Source: an uncultured Flavobacteriales bacterium
GTDB taxonomy: Bacteria > Bacteroidota > Bacteroidia > Flavobacteriales > Schleiferiaceae
Length of the DNA: 64,000 nt
Assembly: GCA_938084135.1 (NCBI GenBank)
Contig: CALKDS010000001.1
Coordinates: 1 to 64,000 of the forward strand
Direction of reading: 5' to 3'
Made by a program: the position numbers and the translations under genes
Part shown: piece by piece, positions 45,532 through 56,183 of the stretch
How positions within the stretch are numbered: the first letter of the stretch is position 1
Layout of the letters: each line of letters starts with the position of its first letter
The notes under the pieces: generated by a model
Seen by the model: only the letters and a program-made list of their open reading frames with translations
What the model was told of the DNA's origin: nothing
The model's database searches: none

Positions 45532-46974
45532 TTAAATGGCTATTCCGATTAAAGTTGCAGATGTAGCTCTCTGTATTTCTACATCTACAAAGTCTCCCGG
45601 ACGAAAATTCTTTTTTGGAAATACGACAACATTATTTTGCGAGGTCCTTCCAAATAAATCATCTTCAGATTTTTTTGATTTTCCCTCTACTAACACTTGA
45701 AAAGTTTGACCTAAATATTTTGATAAATTTTCTCTACTGTGCCTTTGTTGATATTCGATTATTTCAGAAAGTCTACGTTTTTTTATTTCCAAAGGGACGT
45801 CGTCGTCTAAATTCCTGGCAGCAAAAGTGTTTGGTCTTTCCGAGTAAAAAAACATGTAGCCAAAATCATACTTGACTAACTCCATTAAACTCAAAGTTTC
45901 AGCATGATCTTCTTCTGTTTCCCCTGGGAAACCCGTTATCATATCATGCGAAATACCACAATTTGGAATTATTTCTTTTATCCTTTTAATTAAGTCGATA
46001 TATTCTTGACGGTTATGTCCTCTATTCATCGCTTTAAGTATTCGACTACTTCCACTTTGGACTGGAAGATGAATATAATTGCAGATATTATCATTTTCAG
46101 CAATAGCATATAAAACTTCATCAGCCATATCCTGTGGATTAGAAGTTGAAAATCTAATTCGCATTTTTGGAACTGCTTTAGCTACCATTTTTAACAAATC
46201 TGCAAATCTTAAAGCTGCAGCTTGGGCCATTGAACTTGACTTTCGGAAGTCTTTTTTCAATCCTCCACCGTACCACAAATAGCTATCAACATTCTGTCCT
46301 AAAAGAGTAACCTCCTGATAACCATTTTTTGAGAGATTTGTGATCTCATCCACAATAGTCTGAGGGTCGCGACTTCTCTCCCTCCCTCTTGTGAAAGGAA
46401 CAACACAAAAAGTGCACATATTATCACAACCACGAGTTATTGACACAAAAGCGGAAACTCCGTTACCCCCAAGTCTTACTGGCTCTATATTATGATAGGT
46501 TTCTTCTTTTGAAAGTAAAACATTTACAGCATTTCTCCCATCGTCTAGCTCCCCTATTAAATTTGGCAAATCCCTGTAAGCATCAGGTCCTACAACCAGA
46601 TCTACAAGCTTCTCTTCATCAAAAAACTTCTCTCTTACTCTTTCAGCCATGCAGCCAAGAACACCAATTTTCATTTCTGGAGATCTTTTTTTAATGCTAT
46701 TTAATTTCTTCAGTCGTTTTCTTACCGTTTGTTCTGCCTTGTCACGGATAGAACATGTGTTCAGTAGAATTAAATCAGCTTCTTCAGCATTTGTAGTAGT
46801 CTCATATCCATCTTTAACCAAAATGGAAGCAACGATTTCGCTATCCGAAAAATTCATCTGACAACCATATGATTCTAGATATAGTTTCTTACCTGTGCCC
46901 GAACTTTCGATTATTAATGGCTCACCTTGCCTAACTTCGTCAAGTAATTTTCCTTGGCTTTTTGTTGTCTTCAT
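45532..46974 (-). CDS. miaB: tRNA-2-methylthio-N6-dimethylallyladenosine synthase
   Basis: LYLESYGCQMNFSDSEIVASIL; RGCDNMCTFCVVPFTRGRERSR; start at MKTTKSQ. Confidence 0.97.
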   Translation of the reverse strand: MKTTKSQGKLLDEVRQGEPLIIESSGTGKKLYLESYGCQMNFSDSEIVASILVKDGYETTTNAEEADLILLNTCSIRDKAEQTVRKRLKKLNSIKKRSPEMKIGVLGCMAERVREKFFDEEKLVDLVVGPDAYRDLPNLIGELDDGRNAVNVLLSKEETYHNIEPVRLGGNGVSAFVSITRGCDNMCTFCVVPFTRGRERSRDPQTIVDEITNLSKNGYQEVTLLGQNVDSYLWYGGGLKKDFRKSSSMAQAAALRFADLLKMVAKAVPKMRIRFSTSNPQDMADEVLYAIAENDNICNYIHLPVQSGSSRILKAMNRGHNRQEYIDLIKRIKEIIPNCGISHDMITGFPGETEEDHAETLSLMELVKYDFGYMFFYSERPNTFAARNLDDDVPLEIKKRRLSEIIEYQQRHSRENLSKYLGQTFQVLVEGKSKKSEDDLFGRTSQNNVVVFPKKNFRPGDFVDVEIQRATSATLIGIAI

Positions 46975-46978
46975 TTTA

Positions 46979-47011
46979 CAAAAATAAGTACTTTGATGCA
47001 TCCGTGACAAA
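46979..47011 (-). promoter_or_regulatory. Bacteroidota-type promoter of miaB: TTTG-N21-TATTTTTG, 4 nt before ATG
   Basis: Plus strand CAAAAATA (46979-46986) and CAAA (47008-47011); 21-nt spacer; ATG at 46974. Confidence 0.65.
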
Positions 47012-47082: not shown

Positions 47083-49380
47083 ATGCCTAAAAACTTAGTA
47101 ATCGTCGAGTCGCCTGCAAAAGCTAAAACTATTGAGAAATTTCTAGGCCCAGACTTTAAAGTGGAATCAAGCTTTGGTCATATTCGTGATCTCGATAAAG
47201 TGGACAGAGAAAATATGTTTTCTCCATCATATATCGTGAGTAAGGATAAAAAAGAAGTTGTGAGCAAATTAAAAAAGCTCGCAAAAGATAGTGAGATCGT
47301 CTGGCTTGCTTCTGATGAAGACCGAGAGGGAGAGGCAATTGCATGGCATTTAGCAGAGACATTAAAATTAGACCCATTAAAAACGAATCGAATCGTTTTC
47401 CACGAAATAACAAAAAAGGCAATAACAAAAGCTATTGGAGAACCTCGGAAGATAGATATGGAAATTGTTAATGCTCAGCAAGCTAGAAGAGTAATGGATC
47501 GAATTGTTGGGTTTGACTTATCCCCGGTTCTTTGGAAAAAAGTCCGAGCGGGACTCAGCGCAGGAAGAGTTCAGTCAGTGGCCGTTAGACTAATTGTTGA
47601 AAGAGAAAGAGAAATTTTATCTTTTCAAAGCTCAAGTGATTTTCGCATCAATGCGACTTTTTCAAACTCAAAAGGCGAATCATTTATTACTGAACTAAAC
47701 AAAAGTGCTCCAAATGAAGAAAGTGTGGAACCCATGCTTGAAAGCTTAAATACAAATATGTTTAAGGTTGCTAATCTTGAAAAAAAATCTGCAAGTAGAA
47801 AACCATCGGCACCATTTACAACTAGTACTCTTCAACAGGAAGCTTCAAGAAAGTTAGGTTATCAAGTGAATAGAACGATGTCATTGGCTCAAGGCCTTTA
47901 TGAATCTGGATTGATTACCTATATGCGAACAGATTCCTTAAACCTATCACAGGAAGCTATTAATGAGGCAAGTACAGTGATTTCAGAAAATTATGGTCAC
48001 CAATATATTCAGGTTAGGAAATATAGTACAAAAGCTAAGGGGGCGCAAGAAGCTCACGAAGCTATAAGACCCACTAATATGTCTAAAATTTCAGGAGGAA
48101 ATGATGACCAGCAGAAAAAGCTTTATGATCTCATCTGGAAAAGGACTATTGCATCTCAAATGAGTGATGCCAAACTGGAAAGGACAACTGCAGAAATAGA
48201 AAATGATTCCGGTCTGAAATTTGTGGCTAAAGGTGAAATGATTTCTTTCGATGGTTTTCTTAAAATCTACAGAGAGAACATGAATGAAGATAACTCTGGT
48301 ATACTACCGAATTTAGAGAAAGGTGAAATCGCTAACTTGATTTCTGCGACAGCAACCCAAAGATTCACAAGGCCTCCAGGACGTTTTTCCGAAGCTACTT
48401 TAGTTAAATCTATGGAAGAACTTGGGATTGGGCGACCTTCAACTTATGCGCCTACGATAACGACAATTCAAAAAAGAGGATATGTTCAAAAAGGGGATTC
48501 TGAAGGAATAGAACGTACTTTTTCCAAAGGAAGCTTTTCTGATCGTAAATGGAATTGGGAACAAATAAAAGAGAAAGCCGGATCTAATAAGGGTAAAATG
48601 GTTCCAACAGATTTAGGAAACTTAGTAACAGATTTTTTGAATCAGCATTTTGCTCCTGTTATGGATTATCAGTTTACTGCAAAAATGGAAAGTGATTTTG
48701 ATTTAATCTCAACAGGATCAGCTCCATGGACAGAGGTGTTGTCAGATTTTTACTCAGATTTCAGTCCTTTGGTTGGTAAAGCTGGAGATGCAGAAAGAGA
48801 AAGCGGCCAACGCACTTTAGGAATTGATCCTGATTCAGGAAAAAATATTTATGTCCGACTTGCAAAGTTTGGTCCAGTTATTCAAGTAGGAGAAACATCT
48901 GATGAAGATAAACCTAAGTTTGTAGGACTTCCAAAAGAACATGGATTGGAAACTGTAACTCTAGAGGACGCTTTGCCTCTTTTAGCTCTACCCAGAATAG
49001 TGGGAACCTATGACGGAGAAAACATTATAGCTAATAATGGTAGATTCGGAGCATATGTTCAAGTCAAACGTAATTTTGTTAGCCTACCCCCAGAAATTAC
49101 TCCATTTAATGTTTCTGAAGAGCAAGCTATTGAACTTATTGTTGCTAAGGCTGCAGCAGATGCGGCAGCGCAATTGGCTATTTTTGAGAGTCCAGATGGA
49201 ATTATCGAAGTGCGAAAAGGGCGTTTTGGCCCATATATCAAATTCAATAAAGGCAATTTTAAAATTCCAAAAGATATTGATCCAGAGTCGTTGACATTAG
49301 AATCCTCCATGAAAATAATTGAAGAAGCCCCTGCTAAGAAATCGAAACGGTCGACAAAAAAATCCTCAAAAAAATCTTAG
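47083..49380 (+). CDS. topA: DNA topoisomerase I
   Basis: NLVIVESPAKAKTIEKFLG; ASDEDREGEAIAWH; ESGLITYMRTDSLNLS. Confidence 0.98.
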   Translation: MPKNLVIVESPAKAKTIEKFLGPDFKVESSFGHIRDLDKVDRENMFSPSYIVSKDKKEVVSKLKKLAKDSEIVWLASDEDREGEAIAWHLAETLKLDPLKTNRIVFHEITKKAITKAIGEPRKIDMEIVNAQQARRVMDRIVGFDLSPVLWKKVRAGLSAGRVQSVAVRLIVEREREILSFQSSSDFRINATFSNSKGESFITELNKSAPNEESVEPMLESLNTNMFKVANLEKKSASRKPSAPFTTSTLQQEASRKLGYQVNRTMSLAQGLYESGLITYMRTDSLNLSQEAINEASTVISENYGHQYIQVRKYSTKAKGAQEAHEAIRPTNMSKISGGNDDQQKKLYDLIWKRTIASQMSDAKLERTTAEIENDSGLKFVAKGEMISFDGFLKIYRENMNEDNSGILPNLEKGEIANLISATATQRFTRPPGRFSEATLVKSMEELGIGRPSTYAPTITTIQKRGYVQKGDSEGIERTFSKGSFSDRKWNWEQIKEKAGSNKGKMVPTDLGNLVTDFLNQHFAPVMDYQFTAKMESDFDLISTGSAPWTEVLSDFYSDFSPLVGKAGDAERESGQRTLGIDPDSGKNIYVRLAKFGPVIQVGETSDEDKPKFVGLPKEHGLETVTLEDALPLLALPRIVGTYDGENIIANNGRFGAYVQVKRNFVSLPPEITPFNVSEEQAIELIVAKAAADAAAQLAIFESPDGIIEVRKGRFGPYIKFNKGNFKIPKDIDPESLTLESSMKIIEEAPAKKSKRSTKKSSKKS

Positions 49381-49383
49381 ATT

Positions 49384-50538
49384 ATGTGGCAAGAAGTCCT
49401 CAGCCCAATATCAAAAGACTTGCTTTGTGAATTTAAACCCGGATCGCTTGGGGAGAACTTGAATATTTACGCAGAAGAATCAAACTTCCCAGACTTAAGA
49501 AACAATAGAGTAGTCATAATAGGAGTCCCGGAGGATCGATCAAGTCTTAAACATAAGGGAACCAGTGATGCGAGTAATGCCATTAGAAAACAACTTTACT
49601 CTCTTTATCCAGGCTCATGGGAGATTAATATTGCAGACATAGGAAATATAATTCCAGGAAGAGACGTAATTGATACAATAGCTGCTCTTGAGGAAGTTTG
49701 TGTAGAGGTTTTAAAACTTAACTCAATACCCTTTATAATTGGAGGAAGTTCAGATTTAGGCTTCGCTATTTATCGAGCATTCGTAAGGCTAGAACGAACT
49801 ATTAACGCCACAATTTTAGATAGTAGAATTTCTCTTGAATCAGATGAAAAAGAGCTGAATTCAGATAATTATTTAAGTCATATTCTAACCTCTAAACCAT
49901 ACAGACTTTATAATTTATCTCACATCGGTCATCAAACTTATTATGTTCCTCCTCAAATTATTGGCCTACTTGAACGAATGCATTTTAGCACCTATAGACT
50001 TGGAGAAATAAGAGACAAGATTCACCTTATTGAGCCCCTCATGAGAGATGCCGATGTTATTTTTTTTAATAATCATGTGATTAGAATGGCAGATGCACCA
50101 GGTCAATCGGACCCAACACCAAATGGTCTTACAGGAGAAGAGTTTTGCGCAGCTATGCGTTACGCAGGAATGAGTGATAAACTTTCAGCAACTGGATTAT
50201 TTGATTTTAATCCGAGGTTGGAGAGCAGTACTCAAAACGCCCAACTGCTGGCCCAAAGTATTTGGTACTTCTTTGACGGGGTTGATTGGAGGAAGGGAGA
50301 CTATCCTTTTAGATCAAAAACTGAGTACACAAAGTTCACAGTGCTAACAGATGGCCTAGATGAAGAAATTATTTTTTATAAATCATCATGGTCAGAAAGA
50401 TGGTGGATGGAAATCCCATCTCATCCTGGACGGGATGCAAAAAATAGTCTAATTTCCTGTTCTATTGACGATTACAATGCTGCACGAAAAGGTGAAATAC
50501 CCGATAGATATTGGAAAGCTATTCAAAAATCTATTTAG
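49384..50538 (+). CDS. Arginase/formimidoylglutamase-family fold protein, predicted pseudoenzyme
   Basis: Ureohydrolase-like layout (VVIIGVPEDRSS...NAIRKQLYSLY...IIGGSSDLGFAIYRAF...ATILDSRISLE...VIFFNNHVIRMADAPG) with substituted metal-ligand motifs. Confidence 0.75.
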   Translation: MWQEVLSPISKDLLCEFKPGSLGENLNIYAEESNFPDLRNNRVVIIGVPEDRSSLKHKGTSDASNAIRKQLYSLYPGSWEINIADIGNIIPGRDVIDTIAALEEVCVEVLKLNSIPFIIGGSSDLGFAIYRAFVRLERTINATILDSRISLESDEKELNSDNYLSHILTSKPYRLYNLSHIGHQTYYVPPQIIGLLERMHFSTYRLGEIRDKIHLIEPLMRDADVIFFNNHVIRMADAPGQSDPTPNGLTGEEFCAAMRYAGMSDKLSATGLFDFNPRLESSTQNAQLLAQSIWYFFDGVDWRKGDYPFRSKTEYTKFTVLTDGLDEEIIFYKSSWSERWWMEIPSHPGRDAKNSLISCSIDDYNAARKGEIPDRYWKAIQKSI

Positions 50539-50636: not shown

Positions 50637-51581
50637 ATGACAGTCCGTAATTTTTTTTTCGTAACCTTATCCATCGTTTTTACTGGAACAGTTGCAGCTC
50701 AACAAGATGTGCAATACACGCAGTATTATCATAATCAAGTAGGTTTCAATCCCGGGGTTGCAGGCAGTTCAGGCGCTATTAATCTTAATGTTGGGCATAG
50801 ATCTCAATGGGTTGGATTTGAAAATGCGCCAACGAGTCAAAATATTAACGCCGACATACCACTAGCGATTTTACATGGCGGATTATTAGTTAATATCGTT
50901 AATGATCAAATAGGATTCTTCCAAGATATCGCTGCTGCAGTAGGCTACGCATATCAATTGGAATTGGGTCCAGGAAAATTAGGAATAGGACTTTCTGTCG
51001 ACTTTAAAAATAAAAATGTGAAAGCTGCCCAATGGATATATCCTGATGGTACCAGTGGCTCGAGTGACCCATCTATTTTTGCCCCCAACGCGACTGCAAT
51101 GACTCCTGAAATGAATTTTGGCGCATATTATTCTACAGATCTCTGGTATGGTGGATTGTCAACGAGTCGATTATTACAAAGTGAAGCGAACTTAGGAGCC
51201 ACGGCGGCTTACAAAAGTAAATTACACTACTATTTAACTGGCGGAATTAATATTCCATTTAGAGATCTGGAGCTAGTGCTCTCCCCAAACATTTTGATGA
51301 AATCAGATCTTAACTCTAATATTTCTTTGGATATTAATATAAATGCTCTAATCCAAGAAAAAATATACGGAGGGCTGGGTTACAGAAATCAAGATGCCTT
51401 GAGTGTGATGGCGGGGTATCAAATACTCCCTTCCCTAAGACTAGCCTACTCCTACGATATAACAACATCATCTCTTTCCGCATACAGTGGAGGAAGCCAT
51501 GAGATATTTCTCAACTATAGTTTTAACATTGAAGTGCCGCCACGCATTCAAGGAAGCTATAGAAACATTAGATTTTTGTAA
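50637..51581 (+). CDS. PorP/SprF family type IX secretion membrane protein
   Basis: QQDVQYTQYYHNQVGFNPGVAGSSGAINLNVGHRSQWVGFENAPTSQ...GGLGYRNQDALSVMAGYQI. Confidence 0.95.
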   Translation: MTVRNFFFVTLSIVFTGTVAAQQDVQYTQYYHNQVGFNPGVAGSSGAINLNVGHRSQWVGFENAPTSQNINADIPLAILHGGLLVNIVNDQIGFFQDIAAAVGYAYQLELGPGKLGIGLSVDFKNKNVKAAQWIYPDGTSGSSDPSIFAPNATAMTPEMNFGAYYSTDLWYGGLSTSRLLQSEANLGATAAYKSKLHYYLTGGINIPFRDLELVLSPNILMKSDLNSNISLDININALIQEKIYGGLGYRNQDALSVMAGYQILPSLRLAYSYDITTSSLSAYSGGSHEIFLNYSFNIEVPPRIQGSYRNIRFL

Positions 51582-51615: not shown

Positions 51616-53046
51616 ATGAAAAAATTCGTTAACACTTATAGACTTATAACCCTTGGGGTCACTAGTCTTTTAATTTCTTGCTCCGGCTCAAATCATGGTG
51701 AATTGGTTGGAGTACAGAATCGAGCAGATTTTTATCCATCAGATCCATATGGTATGGTTTACATTCCTCAAGGATCATTTAATGCAGGAAATGCGGATGT
51801 TGATATTCCCGCAACCCTTACAGCACCTACAAAAACTGTAAGTGTCTCTTCTTTTTATATGGATGAAACTGAGATAACAAATAATGAGTACCGTCAATTT
51901 GTTCATTGGGTAAGGGATTCTATTTTGCGATACAGACTAGCTGAGGGGTTAGTAGAAGAATACGAATATATCTCGTATGCCGATCTACAAAATCCAACAT
52001 ATTTTGAGGAATATGTTGGAATAGAGTACCCTGACTCGATGCAATCTCATTTAGATTGGAGTCGAAAACTAACTTGGGACACAAAAAAATTTCCTTCAAT
52101 TGAATACACAGAAGTACTTGAAACAATGTATTTGGCGCCTGAGGAAAGATATCTAGGCGGTCGAATGTTAGATTCGCGCCAATTGAATTATTTATATTTC
52201 TGGATCGATAAGCAGAAAGCTGCTAAAAAATCGAACCGAGCAAATATGGATTTCACCGATGCTGATGCTGATGGTATGACATACAACTACAAAGACTACA
52301 TAAAAGATGGCCAAAGCATATCTGACCGATCAAGTTTTTTTGAAAGTGAAACGATAAATGTTTATCCAGATACACTCGTATGGCTCTCAGACTTCACGTA
52401 TTCTTTCAATGAACAAATGCATGACAGCTATTTTTGGCATCCTGCTTATGATAATTACCCGGTAGTTGGAATAAATTGGAAACAAGCCATGGCTTTTTGT
52501 AACTGGCGCACACGATATAGAAACGATTATTTGAAAGAGAATGATGATTTTCAAGAAAGTGAGTTCAGATTGCCAACTGAATCAGAATGGGAATATGCAG
52601 CTAGAGGCGGATTTGAATTAACCACCTATCCCTGGGGTGGACCTTATACAACCAATAGCGCTGGCTGCTTCTTAGCAAATTTCAAACCCTCCAGAGGAAA
52701 TTTAACCTCCGACGGAGGCTTTCATCCTGTAAAGGCCACTTCTTATGAACCTAATGGGTATGGTTTATACTGCATGGCTGGGAATGTCGCAGAATGGACA
52801 AGTACAGCTTGGGATGAAGCTAGCTATTATTATGTTGGAGATTTCAACCCAGACTTTAAATACAATGCTGACGAGAATGACCCTGAAACTATGAAAAGAA
52901 AAGTGATTCGCGGTGGATCCTGGAAAGACATTGCCGCCTACCTTCAAGTAAGTTCTAGAGAATACGAATATCAAGATACAAATAAATCCTACATTGGATT
53001 TCGCACAGTACAAAGTTTTTTGGGTCGAGACGCTCGAGACTTTTAA
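51616..53046 (+). CDS. gldK: T9SS/gliding lipoprotein GldK
   Basis: Lipobox LLISCSG; SUMF1-type MVYIPQGSFNAG...MDETEITNNEYRQFVHWVRDSI...RGGSWKD; followed by gldL. Confidence 0.95.
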   Translation: MKKFVNTYRLITLGVTSLLISCSGSNHGELVGVQNRADFYPSDPYGMVYIPQGSFNAGNADVDIPATLTAPTKTVSVSSFYMDETEITNNEYRQFVHWVRDSILRYRLAEGLVEEYEYISYADLQNPTYFEEYVGIEYPDSMQSHLDWSRKLTWDTKKFPSIEYTEVLETMYLAPEERYLGGRMLDSRQLNYLYFWIDKQKAAKKSNRANMDFTDADADGMTYNYKDYIKDGQSISDRSSFFESETINVYPDTLVWLSDFTYSFNEQMHDSYFWHPAYDNYPVVGINWKQAMAFCNWRTRYRNDYLKENDDFQESEFRLPTESEWEYAARGGFELTTYPWGGPYTTNSAGCFLANFKPSRGNLTSDGGFHPVKATSYEPNGYGLYCMAGNVAEWTSTAWDEASYYYVGDFNPDFKYNADENDPETMKRKVIRGGSWKDIAAYLQVSSREYEYQDTNKSYIGFRTVQSFLGRDARDF

Positions 53047-53104: not shown

Positions 53105-53758
53105 ATGGCCTTAATAGATGTAGATGGCAAGCGATTTAAAAACTTCATGTCCAAATTATATGGATGGGGAGCAGCAGTTGTAATCATGGGTGCGCTTTTC
53201 AAAATCATTCACCTTCCAGGAGCTGACTTTATGCTAATTATTGGTTTAACCACTGAAGCGGTAATATTTTTCATTTCAGCTTTTGAGTCACCATCCAAAG
53301 ATTTTGACTGGTCAATTGTTTACCCAGAATTATCAACACTAGACCTGAACGAAGGAAAAGGTCGTCGTGGAACTGTAACCCAGGAATTAGATAAAATGAT
53401 GGAAGAAGCCAAAATCGGTCCAGAACTATTGACTAGCTTGGGTGACGGAATGCGCCAATTAAGCGATACTGCTTCATCTTTAAATTCGGCTACAGATGCA
53501 GCTGGAGCAACTTCTGCTTATAGCGATCAATTAAATAGCGCGGCACAAAACATGGAAGCTTTGAATGCTCTTTATGCTGTTCAGCTCGAGAACACTACGA
53601 GCCAAGTTGAAATTCAAAATAGCCTAATGGAAAAACTTGGGTCTTCAATGAATGAGTCCGAAGCTCTAGCTCAAGAGGTTGGAAAACTCTCAGGAAACTT
53701 ATCCCAGCTAAATAATGTTTATGGCAATATGCTTTCAGCAATGAGTGGTAAAAGCTAA
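53105..53758 (+). CDS. gldL: T9SS motor protein GldL
   Basis: KNFMSKLYGWGAAVVIMGALFKIIHLPGADFMLIIGLTTEAVIFFISAFE. Confidence 0.96.
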   Translation: MALIDVDGKRFKNFMSKLYGWGAAVVIMGALFKIIHLPGADFMLIIGLTTEAVIFFISAFESPSKDFDWSIVYPELSTLDLNEGKGRRGTVTQELDKMMEEAKIGPELLTSLGDGMRQLSDTASSLNSATDAAGATSAYSDQLNSAAQNMEALNALYAVQLENTTSQVEIQNSLMEKLGSSMNESEALAQEVGKLSGNLSQLNNVYGNMLSAMSGKS

Positions 53759-53820: not shown

Positions 53821-55356
53821 ATGGCTTCAGGATCTCTTTCTCCCCGTCAAAAAATGATCAACATGATGTATTTGGTGTTGACAGCTATGTTGGCATTGAA
53901 TGTCTCCAAGGATATTCTCAAGGTTTTACATAAACTTGATGTAGGAATGTCTGCAACTGTGAAAACCGTTGAAGAAGGAACTAAGACTATATATGCGGCG
54001 ATTGAAGCTCAAGTATCCGAGAATGAACGGGCGGTACCTTTTAATGAAAGAGCTAAAGTTCTTCGAACGAAATCCAATTCAGTTGAATCATTACTTGTAA
54101 AAGCAAGGGAAGATATGATCGAAGAATCTGGCGGAATAGATACTGCTGATGACAACCGACTGAAAGGAGAAGATAACAGAAGTGTATCTAATAACTACAT
54201 GCTAAACGATAAAAGTGTTGGTGGGCAGGGAGCTGCAAAAGAAATTAAAGAGAGACTTACAGAATATCGCGGATATCTAATTGCTGAAGTTGAAGCAAAT
54301 CCTTCGCCAGTTACTGAAGAACTTATTGGAGAAATAAATCAAGCCTTTGACTTTAGTGATGTAAGAGCTGGTTCAAAAAAAGAAACATGGGAAACGGCTA
54401 CTTTCGCAGACCTTCCTCTTGCTGGCGTCATACCGTTTATTACGGATCTCCAGTCTAAAGTAAGACGAATGGAGGCGAGAGTTGCTGAGTATTTTTATAG
54501 CCAAATTGATGCCTCTGCGCTTAAGTTTGATGGCGTGAGAGCTGTTGTTATGCCAAAAAGTACCTACATAACTCAGGGAGAGATTTATGAAGCTGATGTA
54601 TTCTTGGCAGCATATAACAGTGGAAATCAGCCGGAATTTACGGATATCATTCCAGAAGAAATAGTTGATGGTGTGGGTAAAATTCGTTTCCCAGCAAAGG
54701 GAATAGGTTCAAAGACATTAACAGGAAGCATGACGCTGCCCGGAGATGATCGCGTTTATACATATGATGTAGTTTATACGGTCGCGCCACCTAGCGTTGT
54801 GATTTCTCCTTCTAAAATGAATGTCCTTTATCGTAATGTGATTAATCCGTTAGAAATCTCTGTGCCAGGAGTAGCTCCGTCTAACATAGTCGTCAACGGG
54901 CCTGGTGTAAGAGGAAGTAACGGAAAATATAATGCTGACATAACTAAAATAAAGGGTAAGGAAATCAAAATTTCTGTCTCGGTAAAAGAGGAAAATGGTA
55001 AATTACGACGAGCTGGATCAAAAATATTTAGAATAAAGGGATTGCCTCAAGCTGTAGGTTCTGTATTTAAAAAGACCCAAGGAGTAATGTCATCTAGCTT
55101 ACTAAGTAAAGGAAAAGTCGAAGCAGAGTATCAAGATTTTCCTTTCGACTTGCCACTAACAGTTGTCTCATTTGAACTAAAAATGGACGGACAACCGCCT
55201 ATGAAAGTTGATGGCAATAAAATACCTTCCAAGGCCAAACCTCTTATTCAAAAATTACGCCCTGGGAGCAGCGTTCAAATTCGTAAAATTATTGCGAAAA
55301 CGCAAAAAGGCGCCAGAATTTCTAGAGTAGGTATTGTTTCAATTGACGTTCAATAA
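53821..55356 (+). CDS. gldM: T9SS motor protein GldM
   Basis: SLSPRQKMINMMYLVLTAMLALNVSKDIL. Confidence 0.97.
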   Translation: MASGSLSPRQKMINMMYLVLTAMLALNVSKDILKVLHKLDVGMSATVKTVEEGTKTIYAAIEAQVSENERAVPFNERAKVLRTKSNSVESLLVKAREDMIEESGGIDTADDNRLKGEDNRSVSNNYMLNDKSVGGQGAAKEIKERLTEYRGYLIAEVEANPSPVTEELIGEINQAFDFSDVRAGSKKETWETATFADLPLAGVIPFITDLQSKVRRMEARVAEYFYSQIDASALKFDGVRAVVMPKSTYITQGEIYEADVFLAAYNSGNQPEFTDIIPEEIVDGVGKIRFPAKGIGSKTLTGSMTLPGDDRVYTYDVVYTVAPPSVVISPSKMNVLYRNVINPLEISVPGVAPSNIVVNGPGVRGSNGKYNADITKIKGKEIKISVSVKEENGKLRRAGSKIFRIKGLPQAVGSVFKKTQGVMSSSLLSKGKVEAEYQDFPFDLPLTVVSFELKMDGQPPMKVDGNKIPSKAKPLIQKLRPGSSVQIRKIIAKTQKGARISRVGIVSIDVQ

Positions 55357-55358
55357 TT

Positions 55359-56183
55359 ATGAAAAATTTTCTCATTGTTTTTTTCTTTGTGGCTTCGAGT
55401 ACGGTCTGGAGTCAAGTCATATCACCGGAAGATGATGGCTTAGTGCCAAAAGGCGATATACATTATTCTAATACTAGAGTCGTCCCCTACCCTTTTCTTA
55501 GACAAGATGATATGATGTGGGCTACTCGCCATTGGGAAAGAATACAAGTTCAAGAAAAGTTAAATCATCCACTTTATTACCCAGTAGTTCCTCTCCCTGA
55601 TCGAAAATCAATGTTTGATGTTCTTAAAGATGCAATCCTTGTTGAAGGCAGTATCGTAGAAGTTTTCAGGGATGATTTATTTGAACTACCCTTAAGCAAT
55701 CAAGAAGTTGCTGATATTATTTTTAGAGTAGACTCTATTACTGACCCTGATGATCCAAGTATCCTTCTTGCAATTGACTCAATAGAGCTAAAAGCGCCCA
55801 ATGTCGTAGCATGGGAATTAAAATCTGATTGGTATTTTGACAAGCAAAGGGGTGAGATGAAAAACAGAATTTTAGGCATTTCCCCAGTAGTAAAAGATCC
55901 TTCTACATCTGAAATTTATAATATTTTCTGGATATGGTTTCCTGATGCGCGGCAGGCTCTTTCCACAAATATTGCCTACAATCCGGACAACAATACTAGA
56001 AGATTGACATTTGACCAGATCATGCAAATGAGATATTTTAATTCAGTAGTCTTTAAGGAAGACAATGTTTATGACCGTACTATAGATGATTATAAACAAA
56101 ACAGACCAATGGAGCAGCTATTAGAATCCAAACGAATTCGTGAAAATCTAAGGAATTACGAACACGACCTTTGGCAATTTTAA
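55359..56183 (+). CDS. gldN: T9SS protein GldN
   Basis: DDMMWATRHWERIQVQEKLNHPLYYP...IFWIWFPDARQALSTNIAYNPDNNTRRLTFDQIMQMRYFNSVVFKEDNVYDR. Confidence 0.96.
   Translation: MKNFLIVFFFVASSTVWSQVISPEDDGLVPKGDIHYSNTRVVPYPFLRQDDMMWATRHWERIQVQEKLNHPLYYPVVPLPDRKSMFDVLKDAILVEGSIVEVFRDDLFELPLSNQEVADIIFRVDSITDPDDPSILLAIDSIELKAPNVVAWELKSDWYFDKQRGEMKNRILGISPVVKDPSTSEIYNIFWIWFPDARQALSTNIAYNPDNNTRRLTFDQIMQMRYFNSVVFKEDNVYDRTIDDYKQNRPMEQLLESKRIRENLRNYEHDLWQF

Follow-up and report, generated by a model that had tools for sequence, protein, structure and literature searches.

Pseudoenzymes of the arginase fold are already known. According to PMC11271267, they include the T. brucei arginase-like protein (Hai et al. 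2015), which has the arginase fold and evolved without a binuclear Mn cluster, and MetCb, a metal-free arginase-family pseudoenzyme that is needed by its active partner MetCa in metformin hydrolase. The stretch of DNA analysed here (the window, 64,000 nucleotides of an uncultured Flavobacteriales bacterium) carries a further protein of this fold, which is named ARGL here.

The closest sequence and fold relatives of ARGL are the formimidoylglutamases HutG (TIGR01227; 3m1r, 1xfk, and 4mxr), with a profile match of 1e-19 to 3m1r. Unlike HutG, ARGL has lost metal ligands, lacks a hut operon context, and has an extra C-terminal module. ARGL and the T. brucei protein have in common an arginase fold without the binuclear Mn cluster. 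The T. brucei protein is a single eukaryotic protein, whereas ARGL is class-wide among bacteria and has a new tail and a conserved neighbourhood; this comparison is one of descriptions. MetCb is likewise a ureohydrolase-superfamily pseudoenzyme without metal and works by binding, but its active subunit is encoded beside it (PMC11271267), whereas no ureohydrolase gene adjoins ARGL in the loci read. The proteins GldK, GldL, GldM, GldN, PorP, and SprA have a common neighbourhood with ARGL and broad co-presence with it in Bacteroidia, but they belong to other protein families and their presence is decoupled from that of ARGL in both directions.

In a literature search that left most subscription journals outside, neither a description of a class-wide bacterial ARGL family with its C-terminal domain nor a paper tying ARGL to gliding or T9SS was found. 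ARGL, which has an essential gene on one side and a secretion operon on the other, occurs in about 94% of sampled Bacteroidia genomes and would be annotated under an enzyme family whose chemistry it probably cannot perform. Once it is recognised as a pseudoenzyme, degradation of arginine or histidine is no longer wrongly inferred from it. The ARGL family is also an extensive case, provided by nature, of a single fold that has lost its metal site repeatedly.

The ARGL gene, its fold and its distribution

The gene and its added C-terminal part are located as follows.

49384..50538, + strand: pseudo-ureohydrolase ORF (ARGL), 384 aa, AF2 model pLDDT 93
50287..50535, + strand: added C-terminal module (beta-beta-beta-beta-alpha-alpha), FYKS-x4-RWWME-...-CS-x2-DY-x2-A-...-EIPDRYWKA, restricted to this family

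The ORF begins with ATG and its reading frame is intact over 384 aa. The Pfam Arginase profile (PF00491) matches ARGL at 4.1e-14, above the cut-off. The AF2 model, which was built from a 57-sequence alignment, has a pLDDT of 93 and a pTM of 0.92. All of the matches listed by Foldseek for this model are ureohydrolases, with metformin hydrolase chains at the head of the list, and the best match, T. cruzi formiminoglutamase (4mxr), has a TMt of 0.82. Pfam, AF2, and Foldseek thus all place ARGL in the ureohydrolase (arginase) superfamily by profile and fold, but the six metal ligands of the GGxH, DAHxD, and [ST]xDxD motifs read SDRSNH in ARGL instead of HDHDDD.

The preliminary description expected automated annotation to call the protein HutG. 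This expectation did not hold for the curated model, since ARGL scores 80.1 bits against TIGR01227 (hutG), where the equivalog cut-off is 229.15 bits, and the curated rule would not name it HutG. The protein would instead receive the less specific name 'arginase family'. ARGL is presumably cytosolic, with a low maximum 19-aa hydropathy of 1.28 and no apparent signal peptide or transmembrane stretch. No match to ARGL was found in the viral contigs searched.

The C-terminal extension covers residues ~302-384 (~80 aa), contains Trp, and is conserved, with the signature FYKS..RWW..PCS.DY. It is as real as the preliminary description had supposed when it reported an intact ORF with an extended Trp-containing C-terminus. 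The non-family ureohydrolases do not have this module and their matches stop near profile position 307. Outside the ARGL family, the module is represented by marginal scraps at most in 26 related genomes, and neither a sequence profile nor a fold in PDB matched it (the model of the isolated module has a pLDDT of 78). A known fold, or a part common to other proteins, was rejected for the module on these searches.

Of 326 Bacteroidia genomes, about 305 (about 94%) have an ARGL match at E below 1e-20. Among the relatives of the window genome, 55 of 60 gave a match at E <= 0.001, of which one (G048) turned out to be an intact HutG. The window copy differs from those of close relatives by dN 0.018 and dS 0.232, and by dN 0.046 and dS 0.484, which corresponds to dN/dS of about 0.08-0.10. 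The ratio is about 0.12-0.14 against more distant relatives, where dS is near saturation. The earlier reading of a maintained pseudoenzyme, not a decaying one, is borne out by this range (about 0.08-0.14) and this distribution. In one locus (L033, G028:C126), an in-frame TAA splits the ARGL gene, which is either a genuine loss or an assembly error. The ARGL copies of family f19 (L177-L180) are strongly diverged or shortened, consist mainly of the C-terminal half, and have an unrecognisable metal site.

Gene neighbourhood and co-occurrence with T9SS

The neighbours of ARGL in the window are listed below.

45532..47010, - strand: miaB, divergent neighbour, kept in the ancestral-looking order
47083..49380, + strand: topA, DNA topoisomerase I, the most conserved neighbour of ARGL
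50637..51581, + strand: porP-like T9SS gene, downstream of ARGL
51616..53046, + strand: gldK
53105..53758, + strand: gldL, TIGR03513 at 9.4e-53
53821..55356, + strand: gldM
55359..56183, + strand: gldN

Three bases separate the topA stop (49380) from the ARGL start. These coordinates agree with the position between topA and porP-gldKLMN that was first reported, and the position is recurrent. The order miaB-topA-ARGL-porP-gldK-gldL-gldM-gldN is found in many families, including Bacteroidales, Flavobacteriales, and other Bacteroidia records. In four sets of testable loci, topA lies directly upstream of ARGL in 30 of 30, 18 of 19, 12 of 21, and 40 of 77 loci. In the three sets that are long enough to tell, gldK lies within 3 kb downstream in 15 of 17, 10 of 20, and 15 of 63 loci. 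The named loci are skewed to Sphingobacteriaceae and Bacteroidales MAGs.

This synteny supports a cytosolic accessory or regulator of T9SS, dispensable in some lineages, that binds the GldL/GldM motor or controls gldKLMN expression or assembly. ARGL lies within 10 kb of gldL in all 32 sampled f3 genomes. GldL was found in 319 of the 326 class genomes and 307 of these 319 have ARGL (Fisher p 4e-6, uncorrected for relatedness). In L072 (G397:C6, about 1.9-9.4 kb), ARGL adjoins a Mur-ligase gene, and a porP-like and a gldK/J-like gene lie ~4 kb away, which is possibly another T9SS neighbourhood.

Against such a role, ARGL has no apparent signal peptide and could meet T9SS on the cytosolic side only, and the losses of ARGL and T9SS mostly occur separately. 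Seven of the 326 genomes lack GldL and five of these seven also lack ARGL. Three of the five are from family f25, where ARGL is missing from all six sampled genomes, including those with T9SS. One more (G398) has neither ARGL nor GldL but retains SprA, so that its GldL is probably missing in an assembly gap. For these reasons the Fisher association is not trusted. The only plain double loss in the 326-genome sample is G538 (1.2 Mb); another, the 0.3-Mb G051, lies outside this sample.

GldL without ARGL is found in f24, part of f25, f107, f116, f125, and f80, and within the order in f9, f10, f12, and G048. SprA is also present in most of the tested cases of this kind. Conversely, G526 (99% complete, f17) has an intact ARGL (L186/L204, G526:C32) and neither GldL nor SprA, and its ARGL adjoins a NAD-epimerase-like ORF instead of topA. 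G396 (95% complete, ARGL at a contig edge) may be a second case of ARGL without T9SS. ARGL is away from gldL in the sampled genomes of f6, f17, f18, f19, f22, and f23. Where a single link is left at ARGL, it is topA alone 17 times and gldK alone once.

ARGL is thus not present if and only if T9SS is present, and strict dependence on T9SS was rejected by the separate losses in both directions. The T9SS-specific structural or regulatory role that the preliminary description drew from adjacency was not upheld, and the phyletic correlation it proposed as a check gave high co-presence with decoupled losses. A T9SS accessory or regulator is an unlikely reading of ARGL on this evidence. More doubtful is its narrower form, in which a lineage-dispensable motor accessory or regulator is hidden by an arginase- or HutG-like annotation and contacts GldL/GldM at their cytosolic face through the new C-terminal domain. 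We read the broad association as probably the outcome of common inheritance and old synteny, not of dependence.

SprA was found in 11 of 11 congeners tested, and the 80%-complete window genome gave no match. Its presence in the genus of the window argues that the metal-site loss described below is not part of T9SS decay. The gldL ORFs of family f107 (L076 and L077) are 364-382 aa in length, compared with the usual 210-300 aa.

Metal-ligand positions

The positions that correspond to the ureohydrolase metal motifs were located by alignment and are listed below.

49741..49758, + strand: motif 1 position, GGSSDL (canonical GGxH; His101 replaced by Ser123)
49819..49833, + strand: motif 2 position, DSRIS (canonical DAHxD; D146 alone kept)
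50062..50076, + strand: motif 3 position, FFNNH (canonical [ST]xDxD; neither Asp left)
50203..50205, + strand: D274, where rat arginase has Glu277 and most family members also have Glu

The six ligand positions of rat arginase (H101, D124, H126, D128, D232, and D234) are S, D, R, S, N, and H in the window ARGL, and D146 (rat D124) is the sole canonical Mn ligand left. The ligand alignment sets the window ARGL and 152 further family sequences (153 in all) against 18 other ureohydrolases. No intact metal site was identified in any of the 153 family sequences. The maximum is four of six ligands, counting Asn at H101 as kept, and 17 sequences have none left. QDRDDS is the most frequent string. In 16 relatives from outside the class-wide family the string is HDHDDD, except for N in first place in three of them and HDHNDD in one.

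The preliminary description had read the three motifs as GGSSD, DSRIS, and FFNNH, and these readings are correct. Its suggestion that topA-gldK-linked homologues have uniformly lost a working binuclear site agrees with the alignment. Its single remaining Asp is true of the window copy and does not extend to the family. Most members outside the genus of the window keep three Asp, and 16 congeners within the genus keep no ligand, with strings that include SHRANH and SNRSHA.

In the maximum-likelihood tree, a branch separates the ARGL family from the outgroup with an SH-aLRT of 94, just below the value of 95 that the program stars. The loss of H126 and D234 takes a single change within the family plus a second in an outgroup row, the HutG from the window genome; this second change is uncertain, since MAFFT displaced motif 3 of that HutG by two columns. 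Judged from the aligned sequences, the second-metal pair (His126 and Asp234, rat numbering) was lost a single time, at the family base. The three-Asp set takes eight changes on the tree, with the protein itself not lost.

An active but altered hydrolase would retain the first-metal site (Q/H101, D124, D128, and D232) and Glu277 for one-metal chemistry, with a secondary loss in the genus of the window. Consistent with this, of the 153 family sequences 130 retain D124, 113 retain D128, 125 retain D232, and 111 retain E277, and the H101 position is most often Gln (110 of 153). The Gln, His, or Asn with three Asp and Glu277 in most members outside the genus could still hold one metal. However, H126 is kept in 13 and D234 in 4 of the 153 sequences, and the three-Asp set has been lost repeatedly while the protein stays. 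The ligand positions are also not among the most conserved and rank from 73rd to 277th in the family alignment. The near-invariant residues are W340, W294, G248, Q184, F331, R221, P218, E217, and C359, none of which is a metal ligand, which argues that selection acts on something besides the metal site. We consider one-metal hydrolysis improbable for the family, and ARGL is very probably catalytically dead in the genus of the window.

Proposed role of ARGL and the other ureohydrolases

ARGL is likely, though by no means certainly, a cytosolic non-catalytic binding or adaptor protein of the ureohydrolase fold, near-universal in Bacteroidia and not specific to T9SS. An ancestral protein of the arginase/formimidoylglutamase fold would have been inherited by nearly all Bacteroidia. 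The comparison shows that the His126/Asp234 second-metal site was lost and the ~80-residue C-terminal module gained at the base of the family. In several later lineages, including the genus of the window, the remaining metal site has eroded as well, with body and tail under strong purifying selection. ARGL would then work without metal hydrolysis through a conserved surface. This surface may be formed by F331, K333, S334, R339-W341, C359, and D363-Y364 of the tail and by R68, D85, Q184, R205, E217-P218-R221, and W294 of the core. We prefer a general housekeeping role to one specific to T9SS because the linkage of ARGL to topA is kept no less often than that to gldKLMN and because ARGL persists in the absence of T9SS.

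A housekeeping role in the service of topoisomerase I or chromosome maintenance is very unlikely. topA is the most persistent neighbour, by the counts from the four sets of loci, and is separated from ARGL by three bases in the window, but ARGL is away from topA in the loci read from f17, f18, f22, and f23, and adjacency to an essential gene may be mere operon inertia.

A non-catalytic subunit of an active ureohydrolase in the same cell would follow the precedent of MetCb with MetCa (PMC11271267). Like MetCb, ARGL has lost metal ligands; metformin hydrolase chains head its Foldseek list and the window genome holds two ureohydrolases besides ARGL. However, no ureohydrolase gene was found next to ARGL in the loci read, and ARGL is the sole Pfam-Arginase protein in six genomes that are 98-100% complete (G046, G050, G192, G316, G526, and G551). 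An obligate partner of the MetCa type is therefore excluded for these six genomes and an obligate heteromer with another ureohydrolase was rejected, which leaves a MetCb-like subunit with a slim chance. A decaying pseudogene, for which the lost catalytic motifs and the internal stop in one relative (G028, L033) could be cited, was rejected and is hardly credible given the low dN/dS, the intact ORFs in hundreds of genomes, and the near-invariant tail residues.

The hut-cluster HutG of the window genome is not ARGL but L002 (G000:C43:2957-3727), whose neighbours were read as HutI and FTCD genes. This HutG and those of the congeners G009 and G012 (L192 and L193) have DPHPDCR as motif 2. In motif 3 of all three, Cys replaces the first Asp (E-[IV]-C-A-D, compared with E-I-D-L-D in the Flavobacterium-type HutG). 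The HutG of the congener G002 (L191) retains EIDVD.
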